A stretch of DNA of 64,000 bases from a virus: the IMG/VR virus record IMGVR_UViG_3300005602_000003, positions 1-64,000 of that record; one strand, given 5' to 3'. Every line of letters starts with the position of its first letter. The stretch's first letter is position 1. The position numbers were made by a program, and so were the translations under genes. Under the pieces are notes generated by a model. It ran no database searches and had not been told where the DNA came from. It saw nothing but the letters and a program-made list of their open reading frames with translations. This document shows, piece after piece, positions 65 to 64,000 of the stretch.

Positions 65-80
65 GCCCCGCGTCAGCGTG
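65..80. repeat. Degenerate CCCGCG/CGTGGG palindrome
   Basis: CCCCGCGTCAGCGTGGG-like copy of the dispersed family, with one arm mutated. It lies between the promoter and the start codon of the partial leftward gene. Confidence 0.55.
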
Positions 81-85
81 GGCCG

Positions 86-114
86 AACGTAGTCAAAAAG
101 AATACGGGTGTCAA
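86..114 (-). promoter_or_regulatory. sigma70-like promoter, leftward
   Basis: On the minus strand TTGACA (114-109), 17 bases, then TACGTT (91-86). The spacer ends in TGAC just before the -10, as in the promoter at 57196-57224. It points into the partial gene that starts at 59. Confidence 0.6.
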
Positions 115-416
115 GTCGCCTTGTAGAAAGCCTCGCGAGTAATTTTCGTCAGGGCCGGGTAGCCGCCGTCGAAGGTGATCTTGGTGGCGGCGAGACTAAG
201 GTCGCTCCACACGCCGGTTGGCCCCGCTGCGCCATAGAGCGAATCGCTGATGTGTTGCAACACCTCGTCGATGCAAGCGCTCAGGCGTTGATGCAGCAAG
301 TCCTCGGCAGACACCATCGGCTTCACCGGCATGAGAGACGCCGCGCGGACGATGGCGGGAGATGCCATGAAGGAGATGAGGCTGGTGAGGAGGGTGCGGC
401 GGGAGGTTTGGATCAT
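111..416 (-). CDS. Exported small protein with Tat/Sec-like signal
   Basis: A 101-residue protein. The upstream in-frame ATG at 470 was rejected because ATG 416 overlaps the stop of the preceding gene by four bases (ATGA). The N-terminus carries SRRTLLTSL followed by a hydrophobic stretch and an Ala-rich cleavage region (IVRAAS), so a Tat- or Sec-type signal peptide is likely. The mature part is short and has no motif I recognise. Family inference: small exported proteins of this type occur in alphaproteobacterial prophages. Function unknown. Confidence 0.65.
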   Translation of the reverse strand: MIQTSRRTLLTSLISFMASPAIVRAASLMPVKPMVSAEDLLHQRLSACIDEVLQHISDSLYGAAGPTGVWSDLSLAATKITFDGGYPALTKITREAFYKAT

Positions 417-631
417 TTCTTCGGTTCCTTGGGCAACGGAGGCGGCACTGCCAGTCCAATCAAAAACCATGGCATCTGCGCCCAGAGACGCTTGAGCTTT
501 TCCTCGTCGGTTTCTTTTGTTTGTTCAGTCATAGGGCAGACCTCAAGAACTCGGAGGCGAGGTGGGGGGTGTTGAATCAGGTTGTAGAGCCGGTGGGCGC
601 AGTAGGGATCGAGCTCGTTGTAGTAATTCAT
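413..631 (-). CDS. Small protein with methyltransferase-like leader
   Basis: A 72-residue ORF coupled by ATGA overlaps to the methyltransferase upstream (628) and the exported protein downstream (416). The first 19 residues, MNYYNELDPYCAHRLYNLI, look like the leader I associate with phage cytosine methyltransferases, but no catalytic domain follows. The second half, from Met34 (base 532), is acidic and ends in a short hydrophobic run (WFLIGLAV) and prolines. It may be a fusion, a decayed methyltransferase start, or a real gene that begins at 532. Confidence 0.5.
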   Translation of the reverse strand: MNYYNELDPYCAHRLYNLIQHPPPRLRVLEVCPMTEQTKETDEEKLKRLWAQMPWFLIGLAVPPPLPKEPKK

Positions 632-1347
632 TTGGTGAGCCGCCGCTCGATCATAGCCGCGTACTCCGGGTTGGCCTCAATCAAGATTGCGTGACGGCCA
701 AGATTGGCTGCAGCTTCGCCCGTCGTGCCGCTGCCGGCGGTGATGTCAAGTACGATCTCGTTCGGTCGGCTATACGTCGCGATCAACCATTCCATCAGAG
801 CCACCGGCTTTTGCGTCGGGTGACACTTTGTCGGATCGTCGTTATTGATGATCGAGATTTCGAGAACGCTCGTCGGGTAGCGTTCAGTCGAGCCGCCTGA
901 AACAATCTCTTGAGTCTTCGCGCCATAATTTTTCCCGTGCGAAGTCTGAGTCGCGGCGTGAACTGGTTCGTGCCCCTGCGTCATCTGCGGATTATAGACC
1001 GGCGGCGCGCGATAGAAAACTAGAACGTGCTCGTGAACGCGCAACGGCTGGCGCTTCGCATTCAGGAAGCCGGTTGGTTTATTTTTACGCCAAATCAGGT
1101 CGTAGCGAAAATCTTCGAGATTGCTGCAAATCAATTGCGCGGCGAACGGTTCGGCTGCCATGAGCACAATAGCCGCGGCCGGCTTCGCGACGCGACGCAG
1201 CTCGCGCCACATCGACGCAAAGGCAATCGGTTTGTCCCAGGCATTCTGCGTTTTGCCGTACGGAAGATCCGATAGCACGAGGTCGACAGAAGCTGTGCGC
1301 AGCTTCACAAGCACTTCGAGACAGTCGCCAACGCAGATTTTGTGCAT
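628..1347 (-). CDS. DNA N6-adenine/N4-cytosine methyltransferase (beta-type)
   Basis: A 239-residue AdoMet-dependent DNA methyltransferase. The catalytic motif SDLPYG lies at about residues 26-31 (a D-x-P-Y variant). The AdoMet motif DITAGSGTTG is at about 201-210, preceded by HPTQKP. This order (catalytic motif first) is that of the beta class, which methylates an exocyclic amino group. No restriction endonuclease is adjacent, so it is probably an orphan enzyme protecting phage DNA or altering regulation. Start: ATG 1347 is preferred over an upstream TTG (1380), which overlaps the -35 box. The ATG is only five bases past the -10, so the mRNA may be leaderless. Confidence 0.85.
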   Translation of the reverse strand: MHKICVGDCLEVLVKLRTASVDLVLSDLPYGKTQNAWDKPIAFASMWRELRRVAKPAAAIVLMAAEPFAAQLICSNLEDFRYDLIWRKNKPTGFLNAKRQPLRVHEHVLVFYRAPPVYNPQMTQGHEPVHAATQTSHGKNYGAKTQEIVSGGSTERYPTSVLEISIINNDDPTKCHPTQKPVALMEWLIATYSRPNEIVLDITAGSGTTGEAAANLGRHAILIEANPEYAAMIERRLTK

Positions 1348-1352
1348 GTAGT

Positions 1353-1380
1353 TTCGTAGCACAAAACGAAGCGTAGTCAA
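1353..1380 (-). promoter_or_regulatory. sigma70-like promoter for methyltransferase
   Basis: Minus strand TTGACT (1380-1375), 16 bases, TACGAA (1358-1353). Transcription would begin at or very near the ATG at 1347, leaving no room for a ribosome binding site. Confidence 0.5.
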
Positions 1381-1687
1381 ATCGAATACATTTTTCCACG
1401 GATTCTGGGGGGCGGGTATTGAGGCTTACCCTAGAACAAAATAACGAAGGGACCATCGCCCGAAATAAAGTTGCGTGGGAGGGTCTGCAGGCGACATATC
1501 GTGTCGCGCGCCGAGGGCACTATGACCGTACAGTTAGCGTCGCGAATACGGTAACGAGACCGTGAACAAGCGCGCTTCGAAAGCGTAGTCGATCGAGGCT
1601 CGATAGGTCGATCGTAGATATATCAATGGGTTAGCTCGAAACGGGCAAGCACTTGTAAGTCATTGCCTGGGGGGTTTGTCGAGATGG

Positions 1688-1720
1688 CGGGTAGGTCGGG
1701 TTTGCCGGGTCGAATCGGGT
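1688..1720 (+). repeat. Four helically phased CGGGT repeats
   Basis: CGGGT at 1688, 1697, 1706 and 1716, about one helical turn apart. Same-face protein binding sites are plausible. Confidence 0.4.
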
Positions 1721-1740
1721 GGCGCGCGGAGCGATTCGTT

Positions 1741-3448: not shown

Positions 3449-5836
3449 TTACCCTCTCGTTTTCCACACATCGGCTTTTTCGCGCCACCTCCATGCGCCG
3501 AACGAGCGTTCCCAAATGTCGCGACATTCTTTCAATTCGGGTATTTTCCACCAATTACCGTCCTTTTTGTGCAATTTTTCGCAAGACTGTTCACCCAAAA
3601 ACCGGCCCAATGCGGTCACGTTCACGTCTCCGGGCCTCGTAGAATGTTCCCTCGCGAGGTTCAGTAGAACATGTGCGGGAACATGCCCGCTCGCTGTCGA
3701 ATTGACCGGCAACGTCGCGTCCTGGAGCAACGTTGCCCACCATGTTCCGATCGGCGACAAGCTCCGCTCTTTCTGCAATCTCAGGGCCTCGTTGTGGATC
3801 ACTTGGCGCGGATGCCAGTCGCCCAGCTTGGCGCGCTGCAGGTCGAACAGCATGGCGGCGAGCCCGTCTCCGCTCAACTCTTCGTGAAGAGCTCTGAAAT
3901 AGGCCCTGTCCCCCACCTTGGCGGCCGACACATTGAAGATCGCATAACGGCGTTCGTCATGGCTGGTCGGCACCACCCAATCGGCATTGGCCGCCATGAT
4001 GACGTGCAGCCGGTTCCGCCACGGCGTTGCGTCGATGCCTTTTTGCTCGATCATGAGCGCTGGCTCGGTCAGCATCCCCTTGAGCACCGACTCGCCCTGC
4101 TTGTCACCGGCCCAGAACGCTTCATCGGCGAACAGCAGCAGGCAATTGCGCAGGTGGCCATTGAACGCCCCGACCAAGTGCTTGCTGTTGAAGATCTGCA
4201 GCCCATGCTGGCCGAACAGCCTCTTGAGCGCGTTCGCGAAGCTCCCCTTGCCGCTCCCCTTGTCGCCGCGGAACACCAAGGCCACCTCGGCTCGCTCGCC
4301 GGGGTGCTGCACCGCCCAGGCCGCGAACCGCAAAATGTAGCCGGCCGCCTCCGCATCTCCGGCCGCCAGCACGTTCACGATATGCTCGCGCATTCGTGAC
4401 CAGTCGCCAGCCTTCGGTTCGACCGCAAAACCGTTCCACAAGTTCAGGTATCCGGCCGGTATCGTGCCTTCTGGTGAAAGATCAATGCCTTCGTAACTCT
4501 TTCTCCCGGGCCACTTCAGCCAATAGGCTCCGATCGGCTTCGATTCGTCAGCAACCTTGACGTACTTATGGGCGTATCGTTCGGCGAAACTTTTGAAGCT
4601 CTGAAAGGACGGTACGCGCAATTGCGCATCCACTTTGCTAGGCACCCACCCCAGAACGAGGCATTTTCCGCCCATATCGCCTATTACGCAGAACTGGTCG
4701 TTAAGACTTATCAATGGGTTATTGGGCGTCGTTGCGCCTTTGAACGCGGCGTCAAGTTCCGGCATCGCCTCGGCCGCATGATGCCCGTTCGCCTCCTTGA
4801 CCGGTTCACCCGCCGCAGGCGGGTCGAAAGGGCTGAATTCTTCTGGCACCGTCTCTCGCGGCGTCCGGCTCGGCGGCGTCCACCCAGGCTGCACCTCGCG
4901 CGCCAGGATCACCAAGCGCCCAAAGCCGGTGCGGGTCGGCGGCGAGCGGAACAGGTGCGCCCACTCGGCATCGACATCGGCGGCCGTGTACTTGCCGGAC
5001 TTGGCCGAAAAGTCGTGCCCGAGAGCGCGCCCGGCTTCCGAGCCATCGGTGGCCGCCCAGATCGCCATGATCCCGGCCTTCCACGCCTTCCAGCCCAGAT
5101 CCGGGTTTGTGATGACGGCGATCGCCGCAGCCACATCCTCGATCGGCACCGGTTCGTCCAGGCTCGCCGCAAGGTCCGTCATCGCCTCGCAGGCCGGATC
5201 CTTGGCCCATTCCGGCGGCTGCCCGAGCTCAAGACGTTGCTGCGGGGCCTGGGTGCTCTTCGGTTCCCCGGGTCGGTTTTCGAACCAGTGCAGCAGTTCC
5301 GCCGGCAACGGAACGGGCACCGTCTGGTTGAGCCACGCGTAACGCTGGCCGCTGCGGTGCATGGAAGGTGGCACTACCACCAGCCCGCCGTCGCCGCGGA
5401 TGTCGAGCCCGTGGCCATCGTTGGACGGCACCGGGCCACTGGCCGCGTAATAGAGGTGTCGGCCGATCCCAGGCCGGCCGGATCGAGCCGAGAGGGTCTT
5501 CTGCAACGGGCTCTTGATCGCGCTTTTGAGCGTGGCCACGCCGTCAGGGCCGTCGATGTCCACCACCGCAAGCCCGGAGCGCTGGCCGGTCACCACCCCC
5601 ACATTGGCGTCGGGCCAGTCGCGCCACCAGGCTTCGAGCTGTGCCGGGTCGGTCGACGCCAAGGCGTGCTGGATGCCGGTCTTGGGCGGACGCGGGTGCT
5701 TGCCGGCCGACTTGCACTTCGCGCCGCGCCAGCAGGTGCAGACGCGCTCGCCGTTGACGACACGGATACTATGAAGAGGAAGGACGGGCCACCCGCGCGC
5801 CGCGCACTGCAGCGCTGCATCTAGTAGGTCGTTCAT
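3449..5836 (-). CDS. Bifunctional primase-polymerase / helicase
   Basis: A 795-residue replication protein. Residues 1-170 are a prim-pol domain (PF09250 type): GWPVLPL near the start and the metal-binding LAVVDIDG at about 89-96. Residues about 235-320 resemble a primase C-terminal helical domain. Residues about 515-660 are a P-loop helicase/NTPase with Walker A GDKGSGKGS (524-532) and Walker B LLLFADE (566-572), as in phage D5/DUF5906-type helicases. It would prime and unwind at the origin. Residues about 339-346 (PPAAGEPV) in the interdomain linker are encoded by a palindrome copy at 4809-4823. No Shine-Dalgarno is evident; a hairpin (5840-5875) sits just before the ATG. Confidence 0.88.
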   Translation of the reverse strand: MNDLLDAALQCAARGWPVLPLHSIRVVNGERVCTCWRGAKCKSAGKHPRPPKTGIQHALASTDPAQLEAWWRDWPDANVGVVTGQRSGLAVVDIDGPDGVATLKSAIKSPLQKTLSARSGRPGIGRHLYYAASGPVPSNDGHGLDIRGDGGLVVVPPSMHRSGQRYAWLNQTVPVPLPAELLHWFENRPGEPKSTQAPQQRLELGQPPEWAKDPACEAMTDLAASLDEPVPIEDVAAAIAVITNPDLGWKAWKAGIMAIWAATDGSEAGRALGHDFSAKSGKYTAADVDAEWAHLFRSPPTRTGFGRLVILAREVQPGWTPPSRTPRETVPEEFSPFDPPAAGEPVKEANGHHAAEAMPELDAAFKGATTPNNPLISLNDQFCVIGDMGGKCLVLGWVPSKVDAQLRVPSFQSFKSFAERYAHKYVKVADESKPIGAYWLKWPGRKSYEGIDLSPEGTIPAGYLNLWNGFAVEPKAGDWSRMREHIVNVLAAGDAEAAGYILRFAAWAVQHPGERAEVALVFRGDKGSGKGSFANALKRLFGQHGLQIFNSKHLVGAFNGHLRNCLLLFADEAFWAGDKQGESVLKGMLTEPALMIEQKGIDATPWRNRLHVIMAANADWVVPTSHDERRYAIFNVSAAKVGDRAYFRALHEELSGDGLAAMLFDLQRAKLGDWHPRQVIHNEALRLQKERSLSPIGTWWATLLQDATLPVNSTASGHVPAHVLLNLAREHSTRPGDVNVTALGRFLGEQSCEKLHKKDGNWWKIPELKECRDIWERSFGAWRWREKADVWKTRG
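4809..4823. repeat. In-gene palindrome CCCGCCGCAGGCGGG
   Basis: Encodes PAAGE in the linker between the primase and helicase domains, reading GGT-GAA on the minus strand. Confidence 0.75.
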
Positions 5837-5875: not shown

Positions 5876-6071
5876 AGATCGAGGCGAGCTCGGCCTCCAC
5901 AGCCTGGGTTTCGTCCACACGTCCCCTTGTCCGACCATCCAGGCCCCCGGCTTCATCCACCGGGGGCCTTCTTCTTGAGCGTGCCACGGAATCCCGCCAC
6001 GTTCCATCACCTTCTTGTGACCCCGCTGGCGCGGGGCGAGATTTCCGCTTGACTACATTTTTGGCTTGCAC
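5871..6071 (-). CDS. Doubtful 66-residue ORF
   Basis: Open frame in the leader of the primase gene, basic and rich in Arg/Pro. It contains a palindrome copy in frame (RPAPAG) and ends ELASIF 35 bases before the primase. No ribosome site and no leftward promoter seen; it spans the rightward promoter at 6049-6077. Listed as possible only. Confidence 0.25.
   Translation of the reverse strand: MQAKNVVKRKSRPAPAGSQEGDGTWRDSVARSRRRPPVDEAGGLDGRTRGRVDETQAVEAELASIF
5942..5976 (+). terminator. Terminator-like hairpin
   Basis: GGCCCCCGG (5942-5950) and CCGGGGGCC (5960-5968), followed on the plus strand by TTCTTCTT. No rightward gene ends here, so it may instead insulate the divergent region or act as a leader structure on the minus strand. 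Confidence 0.4.
6021..6036. repeat. Palindrome CCCCGCTGGCGCGGGG
   Basis: Perfect-arm class B copy with an internal TGGC loop. An identical copy is at 16116-16131. Confidence 0.75.
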
Positions 6072-6137: not shown

Positions 6138-6155
6138 GCCCGCCGAAAGGCGGGC
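6138..6155. repeat. Palindrome GCCCGCC-GAAA-GGCGGGC
   Basis: Stem with a GAAA tetraloop in the leader of the first early gene; such loops make stable RNA hairpins. Confidence 0.75.
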
Positions 6156-6481: not shown

Positions 6482-6722
6482 ACACGTTCGCGCAAAGGAC
6501 TGGCGCGAAGCGATCCCGCTGACGCGGGATGAACTCGGCCGCCTCATCGGCTACTCGGCCCAGTCCATCCAGCTCTTCGAGCTCGGCCACACACCGCCGC
6601 GCAATTTCGTCAATGCCAAACGCAAGGACAGGAAGATAGAGCCCAAGGTCTGGCTGCGCTACAAGGCAGCGTGCGCCGGCATCGACGCGTGGCTCAAGCA
6701 CAAGAGGAGGTTCGATTGGTGA
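6468..6722 (+). CDS. XRE-like HTH protein
   Basis: 84 residues from ATG 6468, overlapping the previous stop by 14 bases. PLTRDELGRLIGYSAQSIQL has the helix-turn-helix spacing of XRE-type regulators, followed by LFELGHTPP, where the recognition helix ends. The start of the motif (IPLTRD) is encoded by a palindrome copy (6513-6530). Likely an early transcription regulator. Contains a good ribosome site (AGAGGAGG, about 6702-6709) for the next gene. Confidence 0.65.
   Translation: MPSSEHVRAKDWREAIPLTRDELGRLIGYSAQSIQLFELGHTPPRNFVNAKRKDRKIEPKVWLRYKAACAGIDAWLKHKRRFDW
6513..6530. repeat. In-gene palindrome ATCCCGCTGACGCGGGAT
   Basis: 18-base class B palindrome encoding IPLTRD at the start of the HTH. 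Confidence 0.75.
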
Positions 6723-7142: not shown

Positions 7143-7499
7143 ATGATCCGCCACAACGAGATCACGATCGACTCCAAGCGCTGCGCCATCAGGCACCGCG
7201 GCGCCGAGGTCTTCTTCAAGTCGCCCGAGTTCCGCAGCCGTTACGAGCCCTACGTTCAGTACCGGCTGCTATGCCACCTGATCCTTGGCGGCGCGCAATC
7301 GGTCGGGGAATTGTTCGAGCTGATCTACGGCGATCGCGCCGACGGCGGCCCGGAACAAGGACCTCACATCATTTTTGTTCATTTTTACCATATGCGAGAG
7401 CGCTTGCGCCTGCTGTCTTTGTCGTTGCGAAAGTCCAAGGATTGCGGCGTGCTGCGCTATTGGGTGGAGCCCGCCTCGGCGGCGGGTGAACCCGTATGA
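7143..7499 (+). CDS. Winged-helix protein, response-regulator-like
   Basis: 118 residues. VQYRLLCHLILGGAQSVGEL then LIYGDRADGGP and VHFYHMRERLRLL resemble the OmpR/CtrA-type winged helix (helix, wing, recognition helix), but no receiver domain is present. It may imitate or compete with a host regulator such as CtrA; this is inference. The last residues (PASAAGEPV) come from a palindrome copy. Its stop overlaps the polymerase start by four bases. Confidence 0.6.
   Translation: MIRHNEITIDSKRCAIRHRGAEVFFKSPEFRSRYEPYVQYRLLCHLILGGAQSVGELFELIYGDRADGGPEQGPHIIFVHFYHMRERLRLLSLSLRKSKDCGVLRYWVEPASAAGEPV
7470..7486. repeat. In-gene palindrome, 5-base loop
   Basis: CCCGCC-TCGGC-GGCGGG followed by TGAACCC; forms the C-terminus AAGEPV of the winged-helix protein. 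Confidence 0.7.
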
Positions 7500-9307: not shown

Positions 9308-9609
9308 TCCACCTGTTCCTGCTGGCCTTCTTTTTCTCGCCAGCTCACGCCGCCGACCTGGCGCTCCCCCGCCTATCGGCGGGCGAGCCCTGCCTCATCC
9401 GCCAATCAACCGGCGCCCCGGTCGTCCCTCACCTCTCGCCCGCCCGCCTACCGGCGGGGTGGGCAGTTTGGCCCGACAAGACATGCGCGTCCGGCTTCCG
9501 CTGGGGCGACGCTGATCGGTGCGACGTGAGCCGTCCGCCTGCGGCGGATAAACCGGCCAAGGTGGTGGACGACGCGAGTTGTCCGTATGGATGGCGATGG
9601 TCCCGCTGA
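9304..9609 (+). CDS. Secreted cysteine-containing protein with three palindromes
   Basis: 101 residues with an N-terminal signal peptide (LFLLAFFFSPAHA). The short mature chain has four cysteines and ends PYGWRWSR. Three palindrome copies are in frame and encode PRLSAGEP, ARLPAGWA and RPPAADKP, about a quarter of the mature protein. It is probably periplasmic; a possible role in blocking superinfection is speculation. Confidence 0.6.
   Translation: MIHLFLLAFFFSPAHAADLALPRLSAGEPCLIRQSTGAPVVPHLSPARLPAGWAVWPDKTCASGFRWGDADRCDVSRPPAADKPAKVVDDASCPYGWRWSR
9368..9384. repeat. In-gene palindrome 1 of 3
   Basis: CCCGCC-TATC-GGCGGGC encoding RLSAGE in the secreted protein. Confidence 0.75.
9443..9459. 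repeat. In-gene palindrome 2 of 3
   Basis: CCCGCC-TACC-GGCGGGG encoding RLPAGW. Confidence 0.75.
9534..9548. repeat. In-gene palindrome 3 of 3
   Basis: TCCGCC-TGC-GGCGGA encoding RPPAAD; the outermost pair has changed from C-G to T-A on both sides, so the pairing is kept. Confidence 0.7.
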
Positions 9610-9821
9610 CCCGCCTGACGGCGGGTGAAGGCGGCTTGCCAGCCGTAGGCTGGTTCCGCTTCGTCACCCACGACCGCGTACTCGACTATTTGAATTGTGG
9701 GTGGCACATCGCATCTGTTGACCTTGGTCACCATAGCGAGTATGCTGTACTTCTTGAGTGGCTTTGTGCCTGTCCTCTGAAGGAACCAAAACATGCCGAC
9801 CAACGTCGAAGACCTGGCTGA
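9597..9821 (+). CDS. Conserved small phage protein
   Basis: 74 residues from ATG 9597 (ATG 9591 also possible). FRFVTHDRVLDYLNCGWHIA followed by DLGHHSEYAVLLEWLCAC is a pattern I know from short alphaproteobacterial phage proteins. It overlaps the secreted protein by 13 bases and the next gene by 29. A palindrome (9609-9626) encodes TRLTAGEG near its start. Function unknown. Confidence 0.55.
   Translation: MVPLTRLTAGEGGLPAVGWFRFVTHDRVLDYLNCGWHIASVDLGHHSEYAVLLEWLCACPLKEPKHADQRRRPG
9609..9626. repeat. Palindrome ACCCGCC-TGAC-GGCGGGT
   Basis: Begins at the last base of the secreted-protein stop codon and encodes RLTAGE in the next gene. Confidence 0.75.
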
Positions 9822-16115: not shown

Positions 16116-16131
16116 CCCCGCTGGCGCGGGG
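16116..16131. repeat. Palindrome CCCCGCTGGCGCGGGG
   Basis: Starts immediately after the stop codon of the SSB-like gene and is followed by TAAACCC and the next ribosome site. Confidence 0.75.
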
Positions 16132-21293: not shown

Positions 21294-21351
21294 GATCAGC
21301 CTCCCAGCTTGAGGCTGCTAACCAAGATACAAAATGCGGTAGAAATGAGGC

Positions 21352-43556: not shown

Positions 43557-43571
43557 CCCGCCATCGGCGGG
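43557..43571. repeat. Palindrome CCCGCC-ATC-GGCGGG
   Basis: In the 33-base gap between the decoration protein and the FlbD-like gene. Confidence 0.75.
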
Positions 43572-48941: not shown

Positions 48942-48956
48942 CCCGCCGCAGGCGGG
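48942..48956. repeat. Palindrome between convergent genes
   Basis: CCCGCC-GCA-GGCGGG fills the 15 bases between the stop codons of the rightward cassette and the portal gene. No U-run follows, so it is a weak terminator at best. Confidence 0.75.
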
Positions 48957-54740: not shown

Positions 54741-56167
54741 GCTGCCCTCCTGTGTTCCTTAACCTTCTGCGCAAGTGCGCCGACGATACGCTCGAACACT
54801 TTCTCCCAACTTCGCGTCTTGTCCTGCGGGAAAACCCGGTGGTTCGGATACCAGAGAACGTCTTTTCCGTCCACGCCAAGGCGATAATCTCGGCCTAGGT
54901 AGCTGTAAGGCACCCAGCACTCCTTGCCGACCAGTCCGCAGATATGCGCGAGCGCGGACTCGCAGCAAATCACCAAGTCGAGACCCTTGAGGAGCGCGGT
55001 GGTATCCGAAACATCAGAGATGAATGGCGACAGATCCTTGACCAGCCCGGACATCGCGGTGGTGTAGAGGTCGCCCTTGCGCTGGCTGCCCGGCGAGTCC
55101 ACCTGCAACGAGTAGAGCTGCACGCCAGCCACCCGATAGAGTTCCAAGAAGTGCTCGACCGGGATGCTCCGGTGGCGGTCGATGTCGTTCTGAGGCGAAC
55201 CCGCCCAGGCGATGCCGACGTGAAGCTTCTGGTCCGGCACCTTCCAATCGGAGCGGATCGAGTAGTCCGGGTAGGAGATGTGTGGCGTGTTGCGGATTTC
55301 CTCGTCGGTCAGGTCGAGCGCCGCCGGGAGACTGATGAAGGTCGACCAGTAATCAGCGGCCGGGAACGGCGTCGTGGGCTGGAACGGAATGATGTTGACG
55401 TTGGGCAGGCGCATGAACGCGTGCTGGAACACGCGCATGAGCTGCTCCTGAACGTAAAGATGCACATAACGGGCTCGCCCCGCGGCAGCGGGGACGAACC
55501 GAGCGAACGACAGCGTGTCGCCGAGACCCTGGTCGGCCTGGATGAACACCTGCGCGTCCCTCTGGCCTTCCCAGCGCGGGTAGGGGTACGACAGGAAGTT
55601 CTTCAGCCGGTATTCGAACCGAACTTCCATCTCCTTGAAGCCCTTGGCGAGCTGGCGGTCGAAGATCAGCGCGAGCGCGAGGCCGAACCGGAAGTTGGAA
55701 CGGTGTATCCCGTCGCCTTCGAGCTCGATCGCCTTGCGCCAGCAGCCTACGGCTGCCGAGGTGTCGCCCAGGTCGCCGTGGACCAGCGCCAGGTCGGCCC
55801 ACGGGTTGGCCATGTCGGGGTCGATGCTCAAAGCCTCCTTGGCGCAGGCGAAGGCTTCCTCGGTCTCGCCCAGATCACGCAGGCGCCAGCCGAGGTTCGA
55901 GAGAATTTCGGCCTTGCGAGTGGGCGCGGGGTTGCAACGAAGAGCGCGGCGCCATGCCGCGACCGCGGCCTTGAGGGCGTAGATGTCGGACACGCGGTTG
56001 CCGTACTGGAACAACGGCTCGTCCCAGGTCGGATCCGCCCAGATGGCGGAGGAGAAGAACTGGAACGCCAGCTTCCCGGCTTCCGGCCCCGCTGACGCGG
56101 GGTTGCCCGGCGTCATGCACTGGACGGCCTGATTGAACAGCTTGACGGCGGCGGCGCGGTCACCCAT
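54737..56167 (-). CDS. TPR plus glycosyltransferase-like protein
   Basis: 476 residues from ATG 56167 (TAATG with the preceding gene; a GTG at 56176 is the alternative). Residues 20-180 are TPR repeats (AEILSNLGWRLRDLGETEEA, MANPWADLALVHGDLGD). Residues 195-470 form a GT-B-like domain with FIQADQGLGDTLSFARFVPA, HVGIAWAGSPQNDIDRHRSI and DLVICCESALAHICGLVGK, as in ADP-heptose/GT9 and TPR-GT41-like enzymes. It may glycosylate virion or host glycans. Palindromes at 55478-55493 and 56087-56102 encode PAAAGRAR and NPASAGPE. Confidence 0.7.
   Translation of the reverse strand: MGDRAAAVKLFNQAVQCMTPGNPASAGPEAGKLAFQFFSSAIWADPTWDEPLFQYGNRVSDIYALKAAVAAWRRALRCNPAPTRKAEILSNLGWRLRDLGETEEAFACAKEALSIDPDMANPWADLALVHGDLGDTSAAVGCWRKAIELEGDGIHRSNFRFGLALALIFDRQLAKGFKEMEVRFEYRLKNFLSYPYPRWEGQRDAQVFIQADQGLGDTLSFARFVPAAAGRARYVHLYVQEQLMRVFQHAFMRLPNVNIIPFQPTTPFPAADYWSTFISLPAALDLTDEEIRNTPHISYPDYSIRSDWKVPDQKLHVGIAWAGSPQNDIDRHRSIPVEHFLELYRVAGVQLYSLQVDSPGSQRKGDLYTTAMSGLVKDLSPFISDVSDTTALLKGLDLVICCESALAHICGLVGKECWVPYSYLGRDYRLGVDGKDVLWYPNHRVFPQDKTRSWEKVFERIVGALAQKVKEHRRAA
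56087..56102. repeat. In-gene palindrome CCCCGCTGACGCGGGG
   Basis: Encodes NPASAG in the TPR protein. Same sequence at 60553-60568. Confidence 0.75.
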
Positions 56168-56349: not shown

Positions 56350-57134
56350 GCCGCTACCTCCCCTTGCCCCGCGTCAGCGGGGTCCGGGTTCAGCCCGCGG
56401 GCGCGGGCCGCTTTGATCAACACTTCGATCTGCACCAGCTTGGTGAAGGGCTTGCCGGTGCGGTCTTTCATCGCTGGATCGTTGTTGAGCCAGCGACGAA
56501 CATAGAGCCGAATGTCGCCAGCATCCCGGTGGCAGCCGTTGTGCAAATTCCACGACGGGAAAGCCGCGACTGCGTTCTGAACCCTCGTCAATACATCCTG
56601 CTCATAAGGATCGGGTTCCAACAATGAGAACTTCCCTTTGCCAACCTTGCGATAGCCATAGGGCACATTGCCGATACAGCCCTGACGTTCGCGCTTGAGT
56701 GTGCGGCCCTCGCCCATGCGCTGGTTGATCCGCATCCGCTCGAAGTCGGCGACGCCTGACAAAATTGTGAATACCAGCTTGCCGACCATCGAGTCGGCGA
56801 TCGGCTCGTAGCCGAAATCCGCGATGATGACGCCGATGCCGCGGTCGGTCAGATCGTCGATCATCGCCAGTGCGTTGCGAGCCGAACGGAACAAACGATC
56901 GAGCTTGGACGCCACGATGATATCACCGCGCTTGGCGTGCTCCAGCATCTCCTTCCCGGCCGGACGTTCGGCGAGCGGCTTGGCCCCGGACACGGCATCG
57001 TCCGTGAAATACGCAATATCGAACGCCTCGACTCCGCGCGCCATCGCCACCGACTTGATCTTGCGGCTCTGCTCCTCACGCGTCCCGCCGTCATCTTGCC
57101 CCTTCGTGCTCCATCGGCTGTACCCGAGCAACAT
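56346..57134 (-). CDS. Serine recombinase
   Basis: 262 residues; AGGAGGGG before ATG 57134 (the ORF to 57224 overlaps the promoter and is rejected). LLGYSRWSTKGQ carries the catalytic Ser6; SKLDRLFRSARNALAMIDDL has the conserved Arg helix. Residues 155-170 (CIGNVPYGYRKVG) begin a Recombinase-type domain (PF07508), but the zinc ribbon and coiled coil of large integrases are absent. Could integrate, excise or invert DNA. C-terminus DPADAGQ is palindrome-encoded (56367-56382). Confidence 0.78.
   Translation of the reverse strand: MLLGYSRWSTKGQDDGGTREEQSRKIKSVAMARGVEAFDIAYFTDDAVSGAKPLAERPAGKEMLEHAKRGDIIVASKLDRLFRSARNALAMIDDLTDRGIGVIIADFGYEPIADSMVGKLVFTILSGVADFERMRINQRMGEGRTLKRERQGCIGNVPYGYRKVGKGKFSLLEPDPYEQDVLTRVQNAVAAFPSWNLHNGCHRDAGDIRLYVRRWLNNDPAMKDRTGKPFTKLVQIEVLIKAARARGLNPDPADAGQGEVAA
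56367..56382. repeat. In-gene palindrome CCCCGCGTCAGCGGGG
   Basis: Encodes PADAG at the recombinase C-terminus, the same peptide as in the ejection protein and at 63533-63548. Confidence 0.75.
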
Positions 57135-57224: not shown

Positions 57225-57550
57225 CCCGCCTTTCGGCGGGCACGGACTTTCTTTTTCCGCCGGAAGGCCCGCTTCTTTTTGGGCTTCACCTCGGACGCGT
57301 TCCTCGAAGCAAAACCGCCACGCGCTTCGTGGATAATATCGCTGATGAACGACGGCAGCGGGTTCACGATCGGCTGCAAAGCATCAGGCGACACCGACAC
57401 TTTGAAATGCTCGACCAAGGCATCCAGCTTCCACTGAATACCCCGGACCACGTGCTTGATCGAGTCGAGATCCTGCCCAATGCCGGCGCGGTAGCCGGCT
57501 TCCTGAACAAGGAATTTCCTAACGGCTGGCGGCAATCTTGACGGCGCCAT
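57221..57550 (-). CDS. Basic-tailed 109-residue protein
   Basis: Helical N-terminus (SRLPPAVRKFLVQEAGYRAG) and a very basic C-terminus, KKKRAFRRKKKVRARRKAG. The final RARRKAG plus stop are encoded by a palindrome (57225-57240) and the promoter -35. DNA binding is likely from charge. Confidence 0.55.
   Translation of the reverse strand: MAPSRLPPAVRKFLVQEAGYRAGIGQDLDSIKHVVRGIQWKLDALVEHFKVSVSPDALQPIVNPLPSFISDIIHEARGGFASRNASEVKPKKKRAFRRKKKVRARRKAG
57225..57240. repeat. Palindrome at gene end and promoter
   Basis: CCCGCC-TTTC-GGCGGG; encodes the last residues of the basic protein and leads straight into TTGACA. Confidence 0.8.
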
Positions 57551-58523
57551 CTTGCTTCTCCTTTGCTACCTGCTCGGCCACCCAGGCGTAGAGCTTCCGC
57601 AACCCCTCGTAAAGCAGCGCGGATGGCGCCCAGCCGAGCTTCTCCTTGATCAGGTCGTTATTCGAGGTTCTGCCGGCGACGCCGAGCGGCCCCGGGATGT
57701 GCTTGATAGCGATGCGCTTGCCGGCTATGTCCGCCGTCAGGCGGACGAGGTCGTCGATCGAGATCATTTCGCTGGAGCCGAGGTTGACCGGTCCCGCGAA
57801 ATCCGACTCCATGAGTCTTCGGATGCCGTCACAACACTCGTCGACGTAGAGGAACGATCGAGTCTGGGTGCCGTCACCAAAGACTTCGACTTGCCCGCCT
57901 TCGGCGGGTGCTTCTGCCACCTTTCGGCAAATTGCCGCTGGTGCTTTTTCTCGACCACCTGTCCAAGTACAGAATGGACCAAACACATTATGCAGCCGAG
58001 CGACACGAATGCTAAGAGAACAATTGCGTGCGAATGCGTCATAGAGCTTCTCCGCGAACAACTTTTCGAGACCGTAGGCGCTGTCGGGACGAGCGGGCCA
58101 TGCCATATCCTCGCGCAGCTCACAGTGATCCGAGTTCATCTGGATGAAGTCCGGGTAGATGCAGGCGCTCGACGAGAAGAACACCTTCTTGACCTTCGCC
58201 TTGACGCAAGCCTCCAGCACGTTGAGATTGATCAGTGCCGAGTTGGCCATGATCGTGGCGTCATTCTGGCCTGTGAAAATGTACTCGGCGCCCCCCATCT
58301 CGGCGGCGAGGCTGTAGACTTCGTCACCCGGCCGGAACATCTGCTGCCAGAAGCCCATGCGGAAGCGCAGATCAGTGAGCTCGAACTCGTCGGCCGCGGT
58401 CGGTTCGAACTCGGGCATCTTGCGATCGATGCCGAGCACGCTGTAGCCGTCTTGCTTGAGGCGCTTGACGAGCGCAGAACCTATAAATCCGCCCGCGCCC
58501 GTCACAATCGCTGATTTACTCAT
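57519..58523 (-). CDS. NAD-dependent sugar epimerase/dehydratase
   Basis: 334 residues of the extended SDR family. TGAGGFIGS (8-16) binds NAD; FFSSSACIYPD and YGLEK (Tyr/Lys of YxxxK) are catalytic. GGAEYIFTGQNDATIMANS and AWPARPDSAYGLEKLFAEKL resemble GDP-mannose 3,5-epimerase. It would supply an activated sugar for the two glycosyltransferases nearby. A palindrome (57894-57908) encodes APAEGGQ. Confidence 0.82.
   Translation of the reverse strand: MSKSAIVTGAGGFIGSALVKRLKQDGYSVLGIDRKMPEFEPTAADEFELTDLRFRMGFWQQMFRPGDEVYSLAAEMGGAEYIFTGQNDATIMANSALINLNVLEACVKAKVKKVFFSSSACIYPDFIQMNSDHCELREDMAWPARPDSAYGLEKLFAEKLYDAFARNCSLSIRVARLHNVFGPFCTWTGGREKAPAAICRKVAEAPAEGGQVEVFGDGTQTRSFLYVDECCDGIRRLMESDFAGPVNLGSSEMISIDDLVRLTADIAGKRIAIKHIPGPLGVAGRTSNNDLIKEKLGWAPSALLYEGLRKLYAWVAEQVAKEKQDGAVKIAASR
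57894..57908. repeat. In-gene palindrome CCCGCC-TTC-GGCGGG
   Basis: Encodes PAEGG in a surface loop region of the epimerase. Confidence 0.75.
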
Positions 58524-58735: not shown

Positions 58736-59992
58736 TTACACCGGCGGAAGCGAAGAATGATCGAACCGGAACGACGACAGCCACGGCTGCGTCTCGCGAC
58801 ACTGGATGCCATGGAACGTACAGCCCGGCGTCAGGGCTTCAATCCGAACGTTCCGATAGCTGACGCCGCTCGGGACCACAAGCTGGCTCACCCCGCGATC
58901 GCGGGGTAAATCGGGCGCGATCTGGTAGCCGGATGCTAGGTCGGTCACTCGGAACCTGCCGGGGCCTTGGACCGTGAATTCGCAAGGGCCGAGGATGGGT
59001 ACTTCCAACCACGGTGGCGGGCCATTCGTGCTGTCGGTCGACTCGGGCACGTTGCCGGCCTTCCACCCGAACGGTCCCCAGCCTTGACTGTTCACTAATC
59101 GCCAGTCGCCCGAGTAGATGCCGCCGATGCCGGGGATCTGGTGCGGGAAAACCACGCTCCCATTCGATGAAGCCAGCAGGCGCTCGGCGCCTCCGCCATA
59201 GGTCTTGATGCCGTTTCGGATCGCGTAAGTGTGCCGAATGAAGTTGTCGAACGCGTCGTCGTTCCGCAGCAAGTCCATCCTGCCGTCCGCCATCTTCAAC
59301 CCTTGGGCCGCGATGTCCTGATCGAGCATGGTGGCGAGCGAAGGTGTGAGGGCGAGACTGGCAAGACCGTGCTTGGCCAGGATGGCGTCCCAACTCCAGT
59401 CACTCGTCAGCGGCTGCTCGCCGCCGCGAAAGGCCCACCAGGCGCCGATGTCGAGGCCGGTGAGCTGGACGAAGACCTGACGGTTCTCGGTAGTCCAGCC
59501 GGTACGGTAGTGGTCCAGGATGATCTTGGCGGCGCGACGGGTGAAGATGACCATCCCGGCGCCGAGGTTGTGGAAAATTCCATAGCCGTCGCGTTGGATC
59601 AACAGGCGATCCTCGTACGAGCGGGCGGAGACGGCGCCGACTTCGAGGCCGTCATCCTGACCACGCGCGAAGAGCGCCATCGTGGTCGGATACCACGTAG
59701 GCTCAAGCAGCACGTCGTTCTCGCACAGCCCGACGAACGCATAGTCCGCGTTTTCCAACATCTTGGTCAGGGCGTAGACGATCGCAGCGTCGGCGCCGCC
59801 GTGGACGTTCACGAACATGGCGTGGAACGCAGACCCGTATTCCTTGGAGATCATGTCGGCGTTCTTCGGCGAGCTCCCGTCAACCCAGAAAATATCCAGC
59901 CCGCCGCCGGATGCGCCGAGCAGCGGGGTAACGGAACGGCGCGTGCAGTCGACCCGGTCCTTGGTGAGGAAGCTGACCGCGACTTTGCTCAT
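58736..59992 (-). CDS. GT-A (family 2-like) glycosyltransferase
   Basis: 418 residues from ATG 59992 (ATGA overlap with the next gene; the longer ORF is rejected). VAVSFLTKDRVDCTRRSVTP, DIFWVDGSSPKNAD and FVGLCENDVLLEPTWY (acidic E-N-D in place of DxD) suggest a GT2-type nucleotide-sugar transferase. The last 110 residues are beta-rich, perhaps sugar-binding. A palindrome (58891-58906) encodes LPRDRGVS. Confidence 0.65.
   Translation of the reverse strand: MSKVAVSFLTKDRVDCTRRSVTPLLGASGGGLDIFWVDGSSPKNADMISKEYGSAFHAMFVNVHGGADAAIVYALTKMLENADYAFVGLCENDVLLEPTWYPTTMALFARGQDDGLEVGAVSARSYEDRLLIQRDGYGIFHNLGAGMVIFTRRAAKIILDHYRTGWTTENRQVFVQLTGLDIGAWWAFRGGEQPLTSDWSWDAILAKHGLASLALTPSLATMLDQDIAAQGLKMADGRMDLLRNDDAFDNFIRHTYAIRNGIKTYGGGAERLLASSNGSVVFPHQIPGIGGIYSGDWRLVNSQGWGPFGWKAGNVPESTDSTNGPPPWLEVPILGPCEFTVQGPGRFRVTDLASGYQIAPDLPRDRGVSQLVVPSGVSYRNVRIEALTPGCTFHGIQCRETQPWLSSFRFDHSSLPPV
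58891..58906. repeat. In-gene palindrome CCCCGCGATCGCGGGG
   Basis: Encodes PRDRG; followed by TAAA on the plus strand as in other class B copies. Confidence 0.75.
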
Positions 59993-61029
59993 AGCACTGT
60001 CTCCAGGTCGTCCAAGAACGCGAGGGCGGCTTCGATCGTGCTGGTCGGCCAAAACGACTCGGAGTTGGAACAGAAAAACACATGCCTGACGAGGTCGAGA
60101 GTCGGTTGCGGACAAGGGAACTCGTGGGCGTCCAGCCAGTCGGCGAGGCGGGCGACGTTCTCCATGCCGTCGATCTCGCCGCGAAGATCCTTCACGAGAT
60201 CGTGCTTATTCCTCTCCTGATACGCGAAGGGTCGGCCGAAGTGTGTGACGTATCCCTTTTCGCGCATGACACGCTGCATGATCAAGCTGGCGTAGATGTC
60301 GTCATAACGGCCGACGCCGGGCAGCATGAAGAACGCGGGCGCGAGTTCGCGCACGAACGCGGTGTTCTGCGAGTTGGTGATCGTCCAGGTGTCTTTGGGG
60401 TCGACCACGAAACCGGACTTGAGAACTTCGTCCACCCGCCTGACGGCGGGCGAGCGGACGATGCGCTCGACCGCGGAGGTGTCGGGATCGCCCAGGATCA
60501 TGCCTTGGGCCAAACCGATCTCGGCGTCGACCACGGGGGTGAACGTAGCTTGCCCCGCTGACGCGGGGTCGATCGGGAAGCCGCGCTGCGTTGCCGGAGG
60601 CGTGAGGAACTGGCCGGGGTCGAGCCAGCCGGATGGAGAAGAGGCTTGGAGGCCGGAAAACGGCTTGGCATACGTGTCGAGTAAAAATTGAAACTGAAGA
60701 AAGTAATTCGGGTCCATCGGGATGTTGTCGTCATCGATACTGATGATCACATCCGCGCCCCACCCCAAGGCTTCGAGCACCGCGATGTTCCGGCGCTGGA
60801 TGCAACTCCACGGAATCAATTCACAACATTTATAACCGAGGGACTTCTGCCTTTCGGGCGGATACCATTCCGTGTTCGACAGGTTCGTGCAAAAATTGTA
60901 CGTATCCACGATCGGAGACTTCTCGTCACCCACACAAAAAAACCTCACGCTTGCAGCCGGATCAAAGCGCCTAAAAAGTGCAAGCACTGTGGGCACGTTT
61001 ATCGTCGTGAGAATCAGCGCCGTTTTCAT
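59989..61029 (-). CDS. RGP/GT75-like sugar-nucleotide enzyme
   Basis: 346 residues from ATG 61029 (GGAGG upstream). LGYKCCELIPWSCIQRRNIA followed by VLEALGWGADVIISIDDDNI contains the R-R-N and DDDN elements that I associate with reversibly glycosylated proteins/UDP-arabinopyranose mutases and related GT-A enzymes. Works with the epimerase and the GT2-like enzyme. Palindromes at 60435-60450 and 60553-60568 encode RSPAVRRV and DPASAGQ. Confidence 0.6.
   Translation of the reverse strand: MKTALILTTINVPTVLALFRRFDPAASVRFFCVGDEKSPIVDTYNFCTNLSNTEWYPPERQKSLGYKCCELIPWSCIQRRNIAVLEALGWGADVIISIDDDNIPMDPNYFLQFQFLLDTYAKPFSGLQASSPSGWLDPGQFLTPPATQRGFPIDPASAGQATFTPVVDAEIGLAQGMILGDPDTSAVERIVRSPAVRRVDEVLKSGFVVDPKDTWTITNSQNTAFVRELAPAFFMLPGVGRYDDIYASLIMQRVMREKGYVTHFGRPFAYQERNKHDLVKDLRGEIDGMENVARLADWLDAHEFPCPQPTLDLVRHVFFCSNSESFWPTSTIEAALAFLDDLETVL
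60435..60450. repeat. In-gene palindrome CCCGCC-TGAC-GGCGGG
   Basis: Encodes SPAVRR in the RGP-like enzyme. Confidence 0.75.
60553..60568. repeat. In-gene palindrome CCCCGCTGACGCGGGG
   Basis: Encodes DPASAG in the RGP-like enzyme. Confidence 0.75.
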
Positions 61030-61570: not shown

Positions 61571-61757
61571 TAGCTTTCTCCCCCTCGGATTCACCTGCCC
61601 CCGCCTGCGGCTCGCCCGCCAGTCGGCGGGACCACTGATCGAAAATATCCCGCATCATCCACGACATGGACCGCCGCTGCCGCTTCGCTTCCTTGCGCAC
61701 GGCGGCGCGCATCTCGCGGGAGAGGCGGACGGTCGTGGGAAAATCTGAAAGTCCCAA
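61554..61757 (-). CDS. Ribbon-helix-helix DNA-binding protein
   Basis: 67 residues from TTG 61757; an in-frame stop five codons upstream leaves no better start. TTVRLSREMRAAVRKEAKRQ then MSWMMRDIFDQW is an Arc/MetJ-type fold. The C-terminal tail holds a palindrome (61615-61630) encoding RRLAGEP. May repress the operon it heads. Confidence 0.65.
   Translation of the reverse strand: MGLSDFPTTVRLSREMRAAVRKEAKRQRRSMSWMMRDIFDQWSRRLAGEPQAGAGESEGEKANEDRV
61615..61630. repeat. In-gene palindrome CCCGCC-AGTC-GGCGGG
   Basis: Encodes RLAGE in the tail of the RHH protein. Confidence 0.75.
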
Positions 61758-61777: not shown

Positions 61778-61793
61778 ACCCGCTGACGCGGGT
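61778..61793. repeat. Palindrome ACCCGCTGACGCGGGT
   Basis: Class B copy in the RHH gene leader. Confidence 0.75.
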
Positions 61794-61878: not shown

Positions 61879-61894
61879 CCCGCCTCTCGGCGGG
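61879..61894. repeat. Palindrome CCCGCC-TCTC-GGCGGG
   Basis: Copy with GTGAAC flank in the RHH gene leader. Confidence 0.75.
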
Positions 61895-62664: not shown

Positions 62665-63015
62665 CTACTTGAGCGGTTCACCCGCCGTTGGCGGGGCTCC
62701 GGGCTGCGCGGCACGCAGGTAGAGCAGCACCTGGGCGATGACGGCTGAGCCGTCAGCTCCGATGGACTTGGCGGCTAAATCCAGGATGGAGTCCTTGGCG
62801 GTCCCGCCTGTGGCGGGTGAACCTGCCGAAGGCATGGTGCCAGCCAGCCACGACAATGCCTGGGGCGGCATGAAGATCACGACGCACTGCGGCATGCCGG
62901 ATGGGCAGGGGATAGCGGCTTGCCCGGCGGCAGCCGAGGCGGCGGGTTGCTGGGCGAAAGCAGACGACCCGATCAGACAAGACGCAGTGACGCAAGCCGT
63001 GAAAACTCGGCGCAT
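62665..63015 (-). CDS. Secreted protein with two palindromes
   Basis: 116 residues from ATG 63015 (AGGAG upstream). Signal peptide (RVFTACVTASCLIGSSAFAQ). Mature part Ala/Pro-rich with CPSGMPQCVVIFMPPQ. Palindromes at 62803-62817 and 62681-62696 encode SPATGGT and PPTAGEPLK, the latter forming the C-terminus. Confidence 0.6.
   Translation of the reverse strand: MRRVFTACVTASCLIGSSAFAQQPAASAAAGQAAIPCPSGMPQCVVIFMPPQALSWLAGTMPSAGSPATGGTAKDSILDLAAKSIGADGSAVIAQVLLYLRAAQPGAPPTAGEPLK
62681..62696. repeat. Palindrome forming a C-terminus
   Basis: CCCGCC-GTT-GGCGGGG; minus strand TAGEPLK then stop. Confidence 0.75.
62803..62817. repeat. In-gene palindrome CCCGCC-TGT-GGCGGG
   Basis: Encodes PATGG. 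Confidence 0.75.
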
Positions 63016-63040
63016 GAATAATCTCCTAGATGGAAGCGGA

Positions 63041-63217
63041 TTAGCGGCCTTGCAGGATGAACCCGAAGTCGTGCCAGCCAAGCAAGAACAACAGGAACCA
63101 GAGAAAGATGCTGGTCATGTATTGACCGCGCGGGCCGCCCCAACCCCACCACCCGACGCCTGCGTAGGCGAGCAACCACAGAATCATCAGGATCCAGAAC
63201 AACAAACCGATCGGCAT
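63041..63217 (-). CDS. 58-residue membrane protein
   Basis: ATG 63217 after AGGAGG. Two helices (GLLFWILMILWLLAYAGV and SIFLWFLLFLLGW) with a Trp/Gly loop. Small inner-membrane protein, perhaps a superinfection or lysis helper. Confidence 0.6.
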   Translation of the reverse strand: MPIGLLFWILMILWLLAYAGVGWWGWGGPRGQYMTSIFLWFLLFLLGWHDFGFILQGR

Positions 63218-63226
63218 GATAGCCTC

Positions 63227-63391
63227 CTAGATGCGTCCAACCAGGACGAGGATAAGCACGATGATGAGGATCAGCCCGAGGCCGCCGCCTCCGTAATAGC
63301 CAGTGCCGTAGAAGGGACCGCCGCCGAAACCACTGAAGCCGCCGAGCAGGATTATCACGAGAATGATAAGCAGGATGGTGCCGATCGACAT
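63227..63391 (-). CDS. DUF3309 family membrane protein
   Basis: 54 residues. MSIGTILLIILVIILLGGF, a Gly/Tyr loop, and LGLILIIVLILVLVGRI are the DUF3309 layout (PF11752), common in alphaproteobacteria. GGAG ribosome site. Confidence 0.75.
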   Translation of the reverse strand: MSIGTILLIILVIILLGGFSGFGGGPFYGTGYYGGGGLGLILIIVLILVLVGRI

Positions 63392-63487
63392 CTAGGTTCT
63401 CCGGTGTGGGCCGCGATGGCGGAAGAGGTATAGCAGCAAAACAATCTCGTTGCCAATGAACCGCTGCTGGATGGCGTCCCACCACAT
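63392..63487 (-). CDS. 31-residue peptide
   Basis: ATG 63487 to stop 63392, abutting the DUF3309 start. MWWDAIQQRFIGNEIVLLLY has a short hydrophobic helix and a basic end. Its only ribosome-site-like sequence (GGGTGA) belongs to the palindrome flank at 63496. Confidence 0.4.
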   Translation of the reverse strand: MWWDAIQQRFIGNEIVLLLYLFRHRGPHRRT

Positions 63488-63495
63488 TGGGTTCA

Positions 63496-63511
63496 CCCGC
63501 CGCTAGGCGGG
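63496..63511. repeat. Palindrome providing a stop codon
   Basis: CCCGCC-GCTA-GGCGGG; on the minus strand reads GAG-CCC-GCC-TAG, ending the 63503-63844 gene, and its flank precedes the next start. Confidence 0.8.
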
Positions 63512-63844
63512 CTCCAGCTTCTTCGGCGCTTGACCCGCGTCAGCGGGTTGGACCGGCACGAGCATCTCGGTGAAAATGCCGATGTCGGTTTTGCGGATAG
63601 GACGGAAACGGCGACTTCCAAACGAAGGCTCCTTCTCACGCACGACTCCGTCAGGGCAGGTATACATACGCGTCTTGTTTATGATCTCTTCGACGTACAC
63701 CCCCAACTCGAATTCCGATTCAAACCCGCGAATTGTGTAAATGCGCCCTTCGACAGGCAGAATCTCGTCGCCGTAACCCGGACTACGCTCAGGAGGCGGA
63801 GGCCGCCCGTCTATGCACACCACCTGCTGCCCGATCTCGAACAT
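63503..63844 (-). CDS. SH3-like small phage protein
   Basis: 113 residues from ATG 63844 (GGGAGA upstream). FEIGQQVVCIDGRPP and PVEGRIYTIRGFESEFELGV suggest a small beta barrel. The C-terminus QPADAGQ and EPA-stop are encoded by two palindromes (63533-63548, 63496-63511). Confidence 0.6.
   Translation of the reverse strand: MFEIGQQVVCIDGRPPPPERSPGYGDEILPVEGRIYTIRGFESEFELGVYVEEIINKTRMYTCPDGVVREKEPSFGSRRFRPIRKTDIGIFTEMLVPVQPADAGQAPKKLEPA
63533..63548. repeat. In-gene palindrome ACCCGCGTCAGCGGGT
   Basis: Encodes PADAG; identical to the copy at 38165-38180. Confidence 0.75.
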
Positions 63845-63945
63845 CACGGTTTCTCCCATCGATCCTGAAACGTCCTGCCGACATCGTCGGTCGTGCCCGG
63901 CACGTTGCATGCTAACATGTTGCCCACGGGATTGCAGCCCGGAGG

Positions 63946-64000
63946 CTAAGAGGGCTTGCCGGTGAAAAGTTCACCCGCCGTCAGGCGGGGCGCTCCCAGC
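63946..64000 (-). CDS. Partial leftward CDS, C-terminus only
   Basis: An open frame enters from the right edge and ends at TAG 63946 with RLTAGELFTGKPS. The LTAGE is encoded by a palindrome (63974-63989) in the GGT-GAA frame, which supports its being coding. Confidence 0.4.
   Translation of the reverse strand, partial: LGAPRLTAGELFTGKPS
63974..63989. repeat. Palindrome CCCGCC-GTCA-GGCGGG
   Basis: Right-edge copy with TTCA flank; shows the family continues beyond the window. Confidence 0.75.

Follow-up and report, generated by a model that had tools for sequence, protein, structure and literature searches.

What are the dozens of short GC-rich palindromes scattered along the genome of one soil-type phage, and how did they come to be there? 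The question was raised by IMG/VR virus record IMGVR_UViG_3300005602_000003, of which we analyzed positions 1 to 64,000 (the window), making up most of the full 64,877-bp record (G000). A 100-bp identical direct repeat is found at both record ends (window 1-100 and G000 64778-64877), which makes a complete or circularly permuted genome probable. It has a GC content of 60% and encodes DNA polymerase, primase, helicase, capsid, tape-measure-like and serine recombinase proteins. An earlier, sequence-only reading of the window had described the palindromes as a dispersed family with arms CCCGCC/GGCGGG (class A) or CCCGC/GCGGG (class B). As detailed below, the phage harbours a genuine family of tagged 6-bp hairpins that is specific to its clade and still in turnover. 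We lean towards the view that these palindromes represent a minimal and non-autonomous element of about 19-20 nt, similar to the repetitive extragenic palindromes (REPs) of bacteria, that was multiplied in one phage clade.

The family far exceeds chance expectation

Counted as CCCGCC-N3-5-GGCGGG, class A is found 34 times in the window and 35 times in the full record, as compared to a mean of 0.18 and a maximum of 2 in 100 dinucleotide shuffles. The broader set of CCCGC-N-GCGGG palindromes numbers 53-54 in the window, with a mean of 2.0 and a maximum of 5 in 100 such shuffles. Control arms of the same composition yielded 0-1 copies, the exceptions being CCCCGC/GCGGGG (8 copies, related) and GCCCGC/GCGGGC (4 copies), and CCCGCC is by far the commonest arm among all 6-bp hairpins in the window. 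When both classes were required to have six paired bases, 51 strict copies were obtained over the entire record, 50 of them within the window (~0.8 per kb), along with 5 likely variants. The family is thus real and lies where it had been reported. Within genes, synonymous-codon shuffling, the control that had been named beforehand as able to refute the family, left on average 0.98 class A copies (maximum 4) where 27 are observed, and 4.2 CCCGC..GCGGG copies (maximum 10) where 41 are observed, and the family withstood it. One could suspect chance GC palindromes or a codon-usage artefact in a genome of 60% GC; the dinucleotide and codon shuffles and the relatives of equal GC contradict this, and we reject it as practically impossible.

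Among the in-gene copies that had been pointed out individually, 9853-9869, 34926-34942 (34927..34941 in our list) and 55478-55493 are indeed members. The palindrome at 14376-14390 exists, although as a compensated variant (CCTGCC..GGCAGG) rather than a typical member, while 31577-31591 is a class A hairpin that is intergenic, rather than in a gene, in the present gene map.

A six-pair stem, a free loop and a one-sided tag

Class A consists of CCCGCC, a loop of 3 or 4 nt (rarely 5) and GGCGGG. Class B also exists, although it is better described by a 6-bp stem with a variable but complementary outer pair than by the 5-bp arms originally given: it reads N-CCCGC, a loop of mostly 4 nt and GCGGG-N', with TGAC, in either orientation, as the loop in 8/20 copies. 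N and N' are complementary in 16/20 copies in G000, and in 12/15 and 8/10 copies in two relatives, G001 and G016, where about 6, 6 and 3.5 would be expected; C-G, T-A, A-T and G-C outer pairs are all in use. A seventh pair is avoided in class A (7/45 versus 17.8 by permutation, P=0.0002). As both classes have exactly six pairs, they are one design. In G000, hairpins with all five inner pairs preserved have a Watson-Crick sixth pair in 37/39 (class A) and 14/17 (class B) cases. Single mismatches left uncompensated are rare, with 5 in the window, and the loops are highly diverse. Such stem perfection combined with free loops is as would be expected if a folded hairpin were being constrained. If a dimer bound the sites as double-stranded DNA, one position open to every complementary pair would be surprising, as would the tolerance of loops of 3, 4 and 5 nt. 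The alternatives initially offered, namely RNA hairpins or protein-binding sites, are narrowed to a folded hairpin, which may be RNA or single-stranded DNA.

At the 5' foot of the stem, 35/51 copies present one of the tetranucleotides CTTG, TTCA, CTCG or TTTA (YTYR), with a background of 1.7% per site. Only 3 copies have the tag on both sides (Fisher p=0.017, or 0.008 when pooled over three phages). Read in reverse, the tag corresponds to the TGAACC/TAAACC flanks and the CAAG tail. The shared flank noted in the sequence-only reading proved genuine, with the motif T[GA]AA/[TC]?CAAG/CGAG found outside the stem in 39/102 flanks versus a background of 2%. Within genes, the tag complement (a strong tail) lies on the sense strand in a ratio of 25:3, against a coding baseline of ~0.63 (p=0.002). 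It should be considered that G000 genes are arranged in long blocks on one strand, such that gene strand and replication direction may be confounded; codon composition may, in part, be a further confounder of the sense bias. A first orientation count of 33:18, taken as support for an RNA role, was downgraded, since the coding baseline of the tail words is already 0.57-0.67 sense.

Relatives, empty sites and turnover

With the capsid protein as query, 80 loci of related phages were found, while the DNA polymerase as query recovered none. The family is confined to one clade: strict copies number 51 in G000, 22 in G001 and 8 in G016, while ten further long relatives with a similar GC content have 0-7, and many relatives lack any class A copy. 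In a portal-protein tree, a single clade (support 100/99) holds every element-rich phage, and its inner part is very young (branches 0.02-0.03). Tagged class A elements are also found at low copy in G009 and G027, and the family is, therefore, probably older than its expansion, in which copies were acquired recently and more than once.

Comparing orthologous loci with and without the element, as had been proposed, revealed both empty sites and whole-unit insertions. Upstream of one conserved gene, dozens of relatives present the empty form TACTGAGGAG or a close variant. At this same site, locus L137 reads TATTGA-CCCCGCTGACGCGGGGCA-AGGAG, L262 holds the identical unit, G001 has a class A hairpin and L259 retains a deletion remnant (CCCCGC), with G000 and G016 being empty. 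At a second site, 20-nt units in L259 and L137 are absent from G001 and G016. A clean insertion is seen where GGC-AAATGG in G001 corresponds to GGGC-ACCCCCGCTGACGCGGGGCT-AAATGG in L259. In alignments with empty sites, clean insertions are units of 19-20 nt, several of them immediately 3' of stop codons. Downstream of the portal gene, a hairpin lies beside the stop codon in six clade sequences (one pair being near-identical), with differing outer pairs and the loop in either orientation; none is found there in G016, L262 and L264. At one orthologous site (L258, L259, L260, L137 and window 48942-48956), the loop is TGAC or GTCA and the outer pairs differ, as would be seen after inversion of the loop or after more than one hit on the site; in more distant relatives, this site is without a hairpin.

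Within genes, the pattern is less uniform: the copies at 54069, 55478, 60435, 6514 and 47941 are length-neutral replacements, and other genic copies add 3, 6 or 12 nt. A single A is perhaps doubled at some sites, but neither a consistent flanking repeat nor the consistent target duplication of a simple transposon was seen.

Other hairpins were also encountered in the relatives. In G017 (L222 near 3750), as well as in L143, L144 and L261, a different hairpin, TAA-GGCGCG-TCT-CGCGCC-CGAGGAG, occupies a stop/Shine-Dalgarno junction and is perhaps another hairpin family of that lineage; L137 and G001 carry the phage element at that junction. A few hairpins with CCCGCC- or GCCCGC- stems followed by T runs (G017 9216, G025 57034, G027 5431 and G001 31856) look like ordinary terminators outside the family.

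Where the copies sit

Within predicted genes lie 39/51 strict copies, mainly at protein ends and in variable linkers, and often in the frame that reads Pro-Ala-x-Gly-Gly. In G000, 12/51 strict copies are intergenic, as compared to 17.6% of the genome, which is not a significant difference; in G001, these values are 10/22 and 12.7% (p=2e-4). Intergenic copies adjoin stop codons in 4/12 cases in G000 (p=5e-6) and in 3/10 cases in G001 (p=2e-4). The copies and variants are listed here by window position, with the strand being '.' for every hairpin.

4809..4823, class A; linker of primase-like gene, TTCA tag
6021..6036, class B, C-G outer pair; intergenic
6139..6154, class A; intergenic
6514..6529, class B, T-A outer pair; in gene, length-neutral versus relatives
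7470..7486, class A; near C-terminus of a gene, TTCA tag
9368..9383, class A
9443..9458, class A
9534..9548, variant with compensated outer pair (TCCGCC..GGCGGA); TTTA tag
9610..9625, class A; immediately 3' of stop codon
9853..9869, class A; variable linker, CTTG tag
11690..11704, class A; in gene, +6 nt versus most relatives
12665..12679, class A; helicase gene, +3 nt versus relatives
15887..15901, class A; variable C-terminal linker, TTCA tag
15948..15962, class A; same variable C-terminal linker
16001..16016, class A; same linker, CTTG tag
16032..16046, class A; same linker, TTCA tag
16116..16131, class B; immediately 3' of stop codon and 5' of the AGGAG of the following gene, TTTA tag
21213..21228, variant with compensated outer pair (TCCGCC..GGCGGA)
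21351..21366, class A; intergenic, TTTA tag
22811..22825, class A; in gene
28524..28538, class A; N-terminal part of gene, at least +12 nt versus relatives
31498..31513, class A; variable N-terminus, CTTG tag
31577..31591, class A; intergenic, TTCA tag
34817..34832, class B, T-A outer pair; variable N-terminus of tape-measure-like gene, CTTG tag
34927..34941, class A; variable C-terminus
36383..36397, class B, 3-nt loop; CTTG tag
37360..37377, class B, G-C outer pair; spans a gene end
38165..38180, class B, A-T outer pair; gene end, one outer base shared with TAA stop, hairpin absent in more distant relatives
43557..43571, class A; immediately 3' of TAA stop, aligned relatives without hairpin here
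47941..47955, class A; in gene, length-neutral versus G001
47984..47998, class A; within 21-nt insertion versus sister clade
48942..48956, class A; between two convergent stop codons, directly after stop, other family hairpins here in relatives
53240..53254, class A; in gene, +3 to +6 nt versus relatives
53340..53355, class B; +6 nt, G001 already has CCCCGC arm
53818..53833, possible variant (GCCGCC..GGCGGC), uncertain
54069..54084, class A; conserved block, length-neutral replacement
55478..55493, class B; length-neutral replacement, CTCG tag
56034..56050, possible variant (TCCGCC..GGCGGA, 5-nt loop), uncertain
56087..56102, class B; within 12-nt insertion versus relatives
56367..56382, class B; serine recombinase gene near C-terminus, CTTG tag
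56393..56408, class B, G-C outer pair; serine recombinase gene, TTCA tag
57225..57240, class A; gene end
57730..57745, variant with compensated outer pair (TCCGCC..GGCGGA)
57894..57908, class A; +3 nt, G016 already has GGCGGG arm
58891..58906, class B; G016 has a hairpin, and G001 half a hairpin, in the same linker
60435..60450, class A; length-neutral, different hairpin at nearly same spot in G001
60553..60568, class B; +6 nt versus most relatives, CTTG tag
61615..61630, class A; intergenic, CTCG tag
61778..61793, class B, A-T outer pair; intergenic, with a tail motif on each side
61879..61894, class A; intergenic, TTCA tag
62681..62695, class A; TTCA tag
62803..62817, class A; TTCA tag
63496..63511, class A; spans a stop codon, TTCA tag
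63533..63548, class B, A-T outer pair; CTTG tag
63974..63989, class A; TTCA tag

The serine recombinase gene in this list (window 56346-57224) is kept across the phage family, also in members without hairpins.

Mechanism and rival explanations

The present data show a clade-restricted family of defined anatomy, with clean insertion relative to empty sites, turnover among near relatives and conserved pairing. In the explanation that we prefer, the unit would comprise the one-sided YTYR tag, a perfect 6-bp stem (core CCGC) and a loop of 3-4 nt. An enzyme acting in trans, probably encoded by the host and belonging to the HUH/Y1 kind that processes REPs, would recognize the hairpin in its folded single-stranded form. 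Folded single-stranded DNA is the substrate of REP transposases, and this would fit a strand bias. While the phage replicates and recombines, new copies would be inserted, or would replace existing sequence, by copying from a template, with the hairpin as the unit recognized; the occurrence of both whole-unit insertions and replacements suggests this. Copies would then survive where harm is least, namely immediately 3' of stops, in linkers and at protein ends. The passage from recognized hairpin to mobilized element is the weakest step of this explanation. Several results weigh against it and need to be considered: the Y1 transposase (PF01797) was not found in G000 or six relatives, no gene was obviously private to the element-rich clade and no candidate mobilizer stood out, pattern searches of the genome collection found no host genome with the same hairpin expansion, the copies are not identical units but vary in outer pairs and loops, and roughly one half of the copies in genes that can be aligned either leave the length unchanged or add just 3-12 nt, such that insertion of a fixed unit is alone insufficient. 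The initial claim of one REP-like element, as opposed to random stems, is carried by the shuffle and codon controls, the one-sided tag, the clade restriction and the empty sites. It is unsupported as first worded in that the phage yielded no REP-associated transposase, the tag is neither GTAG nor CGTC and about half of the alignable genic copies are length-neutral or small changes, not simple whole-unit insertions.

The hairpins might, instead, be functional RNA or single-stranded DNA sites added by selection through any mutation route, as with uptake sequences or HIP1, and bound by a protein able to gauge a stem length of 6 bp. The perfection of the stems, the freedom of the loops and the scarcity of single-mismatch relics would agree with this, as would the heterogeneous origins (0, +3, +6, +12 and +19-20 nt), the half-hairpins already present in relatives at 53340 and 57894 and the sense-biased strong tails. 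However, whole perfect 19-20 nt units in otherwise unchanged spacers need template copying, most relatives live without hairpins and the sense bias is subject to the confounders described above; we regard such selection as possible, albeit on the unlikely side. The hairpins could also be RNA decoys that mimic the type I-E clustered regularly interspaced short palindromic repeat (CRISPR) hairpin and so titrate host Cas6e. The class B stem with its 4-nt loop and TGAACC tail consensus resembles the I-E repeat with its 6-bp stem (CCCCGC-N4-GCGGGG, then T[GA]AACC), and the strong tails are in the sense orientation. CRISPR-inhibiting solitary repeat units borne by phages, the RNA anti-CRISPRs or Racr, are known, including for type I-E (PMC10651486). 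Like these, the present hairpins are phage-borne and single, yet they are dispersed by the dozens and mostly genic, whereas intergenic regions are mainly where such units have been looked for and discovered. Class A stems are, moreover, not of I-E form. Rfam gave no match marking the family in the window, either at the gathering score or at E up to 10, and only one weak CRISPR-DR10 match over a copy in four relatives (E=5.4, chance level). Class A with TGAACC matched 113 stretches of unrelated genomes in the collection, as single matches among those listed, with no array. All in all, decoys of this sort are very unlikely. Intrinsic terminators or mRNA-stabilizing hairpins, as suggested by the several copies immediately 3' of stops and between convergent genes, are less likely still: most copies are inside genes, and TTTT is found within 10 nt, on either strand, at only 1/51 copies, a lack of T tracts that rules out intrinsic terminators.

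Comparison with known systems

REP families carry a tetranucleotide tag at one end and stems of 5-13 bp with complementary changes, with intragenic copies being possible (PMC3733652, PMC8266576), and CGTC-tagged families have no known transposase either (PMC3733652). The phage hairpins are alike in their one-sided tag, compensated short stem, small loop and dozens of copies, some of them genic. They differ in their tag, which is YTYR, with GTAG found at 2, GGAG at 2 and CGTC at 0 of 102 hairpin flanks, a further point against a REP-like origin. They also differ in a stem fixed at 6 bp, in residing in a phage genome and mostly in genes, whereas REPs are mostly extragenic and chromosomal, in their density of ~0.8 per kb, and in that the phage and six relatives gave no match to the Y1 transposase that the GTAG type has as RAYT/TnpA-REP. 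Given these mismatches of tag, setting and transposase, we do not file the family as REPs but say that it works like one.

Yeast mitochondrial GC42 clusters show presence/absence polymorphism, conserved stems and variable loops and encode no transposase (PMC4478555). The phage hairpins likewise are mobile-looking GC palindromes of a small genome, with empty-site polymorphism, conserved stems and free loops; the GC clusters are, however, longer (42 nt), are flanked by AG or ACT direct repeats and belong to another genome with another replication. The PeSL cassettes of T4-type phages are also dispersed phage stem-loops thought to be mobile, but are intergenic and carry promoters.

Search for hosts and bacterial counterparts

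The capsid protein had no match in 385 Alphaproteobacteria and weak, distant matches in 2/396 Acidobacteriota. Polymerase and helicase similarity points loosely to phages of Rhizobium, Pseudomonas and Xanthomonas, and epimerase similarity to alphaproteobacterial plasmids. A CAAG-tailed pattern matched at least 120 viral stretches, nearly all once, which is near a rough base-composition expectation and thus uninformative. With a YRAR-tagged pattern, one alphaproteobacterium, G131 (loci L433-L441), stood out; its repeat was rejected as the same element, as it consists of dispersed CCCTCTCCCGCCTGCGGCGGGCGAGGG palindromes with a related core but greater length. In the bacterial chromosome of Methylorubrum salsuginis (G039, from L058), 61 dispersed CCCCGC-N4-GCGGGG hairpins, mostly CCCCGCGACGGCGGGG or its complement, look like a REP-type family.

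Implications

What is new relative to known REPs is the tag sequence and the residence in a phage, and the open-access papers that we searched did not describe any REP-like family that expands in a phage. It is conceivable, if improbable, that the hairpins are a new kind of phage weapon or parasite. The dozens of 6-bp-measured copies, embedded in many transcripts, would then be distributed decoys of a host hairpin-binding nuclease (Cas6-like), or else an active element moved into phage DNA as folded single strands, in which case close relatives would let one follow a phage genome as REP-like elements accumulate in it. The origin and spread of REP-like palindromes is an open question, bacterial families being old and blurred. 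This clade displays the full course, from empty sites through single insertions, several hairpins per site and decay remnants to a genome of 51 copies. If a host enzyme mobilizes the hairpins, the clade would be a ready experiment, and if selection maintains them, the hairpin-binding partner would be worth finding.

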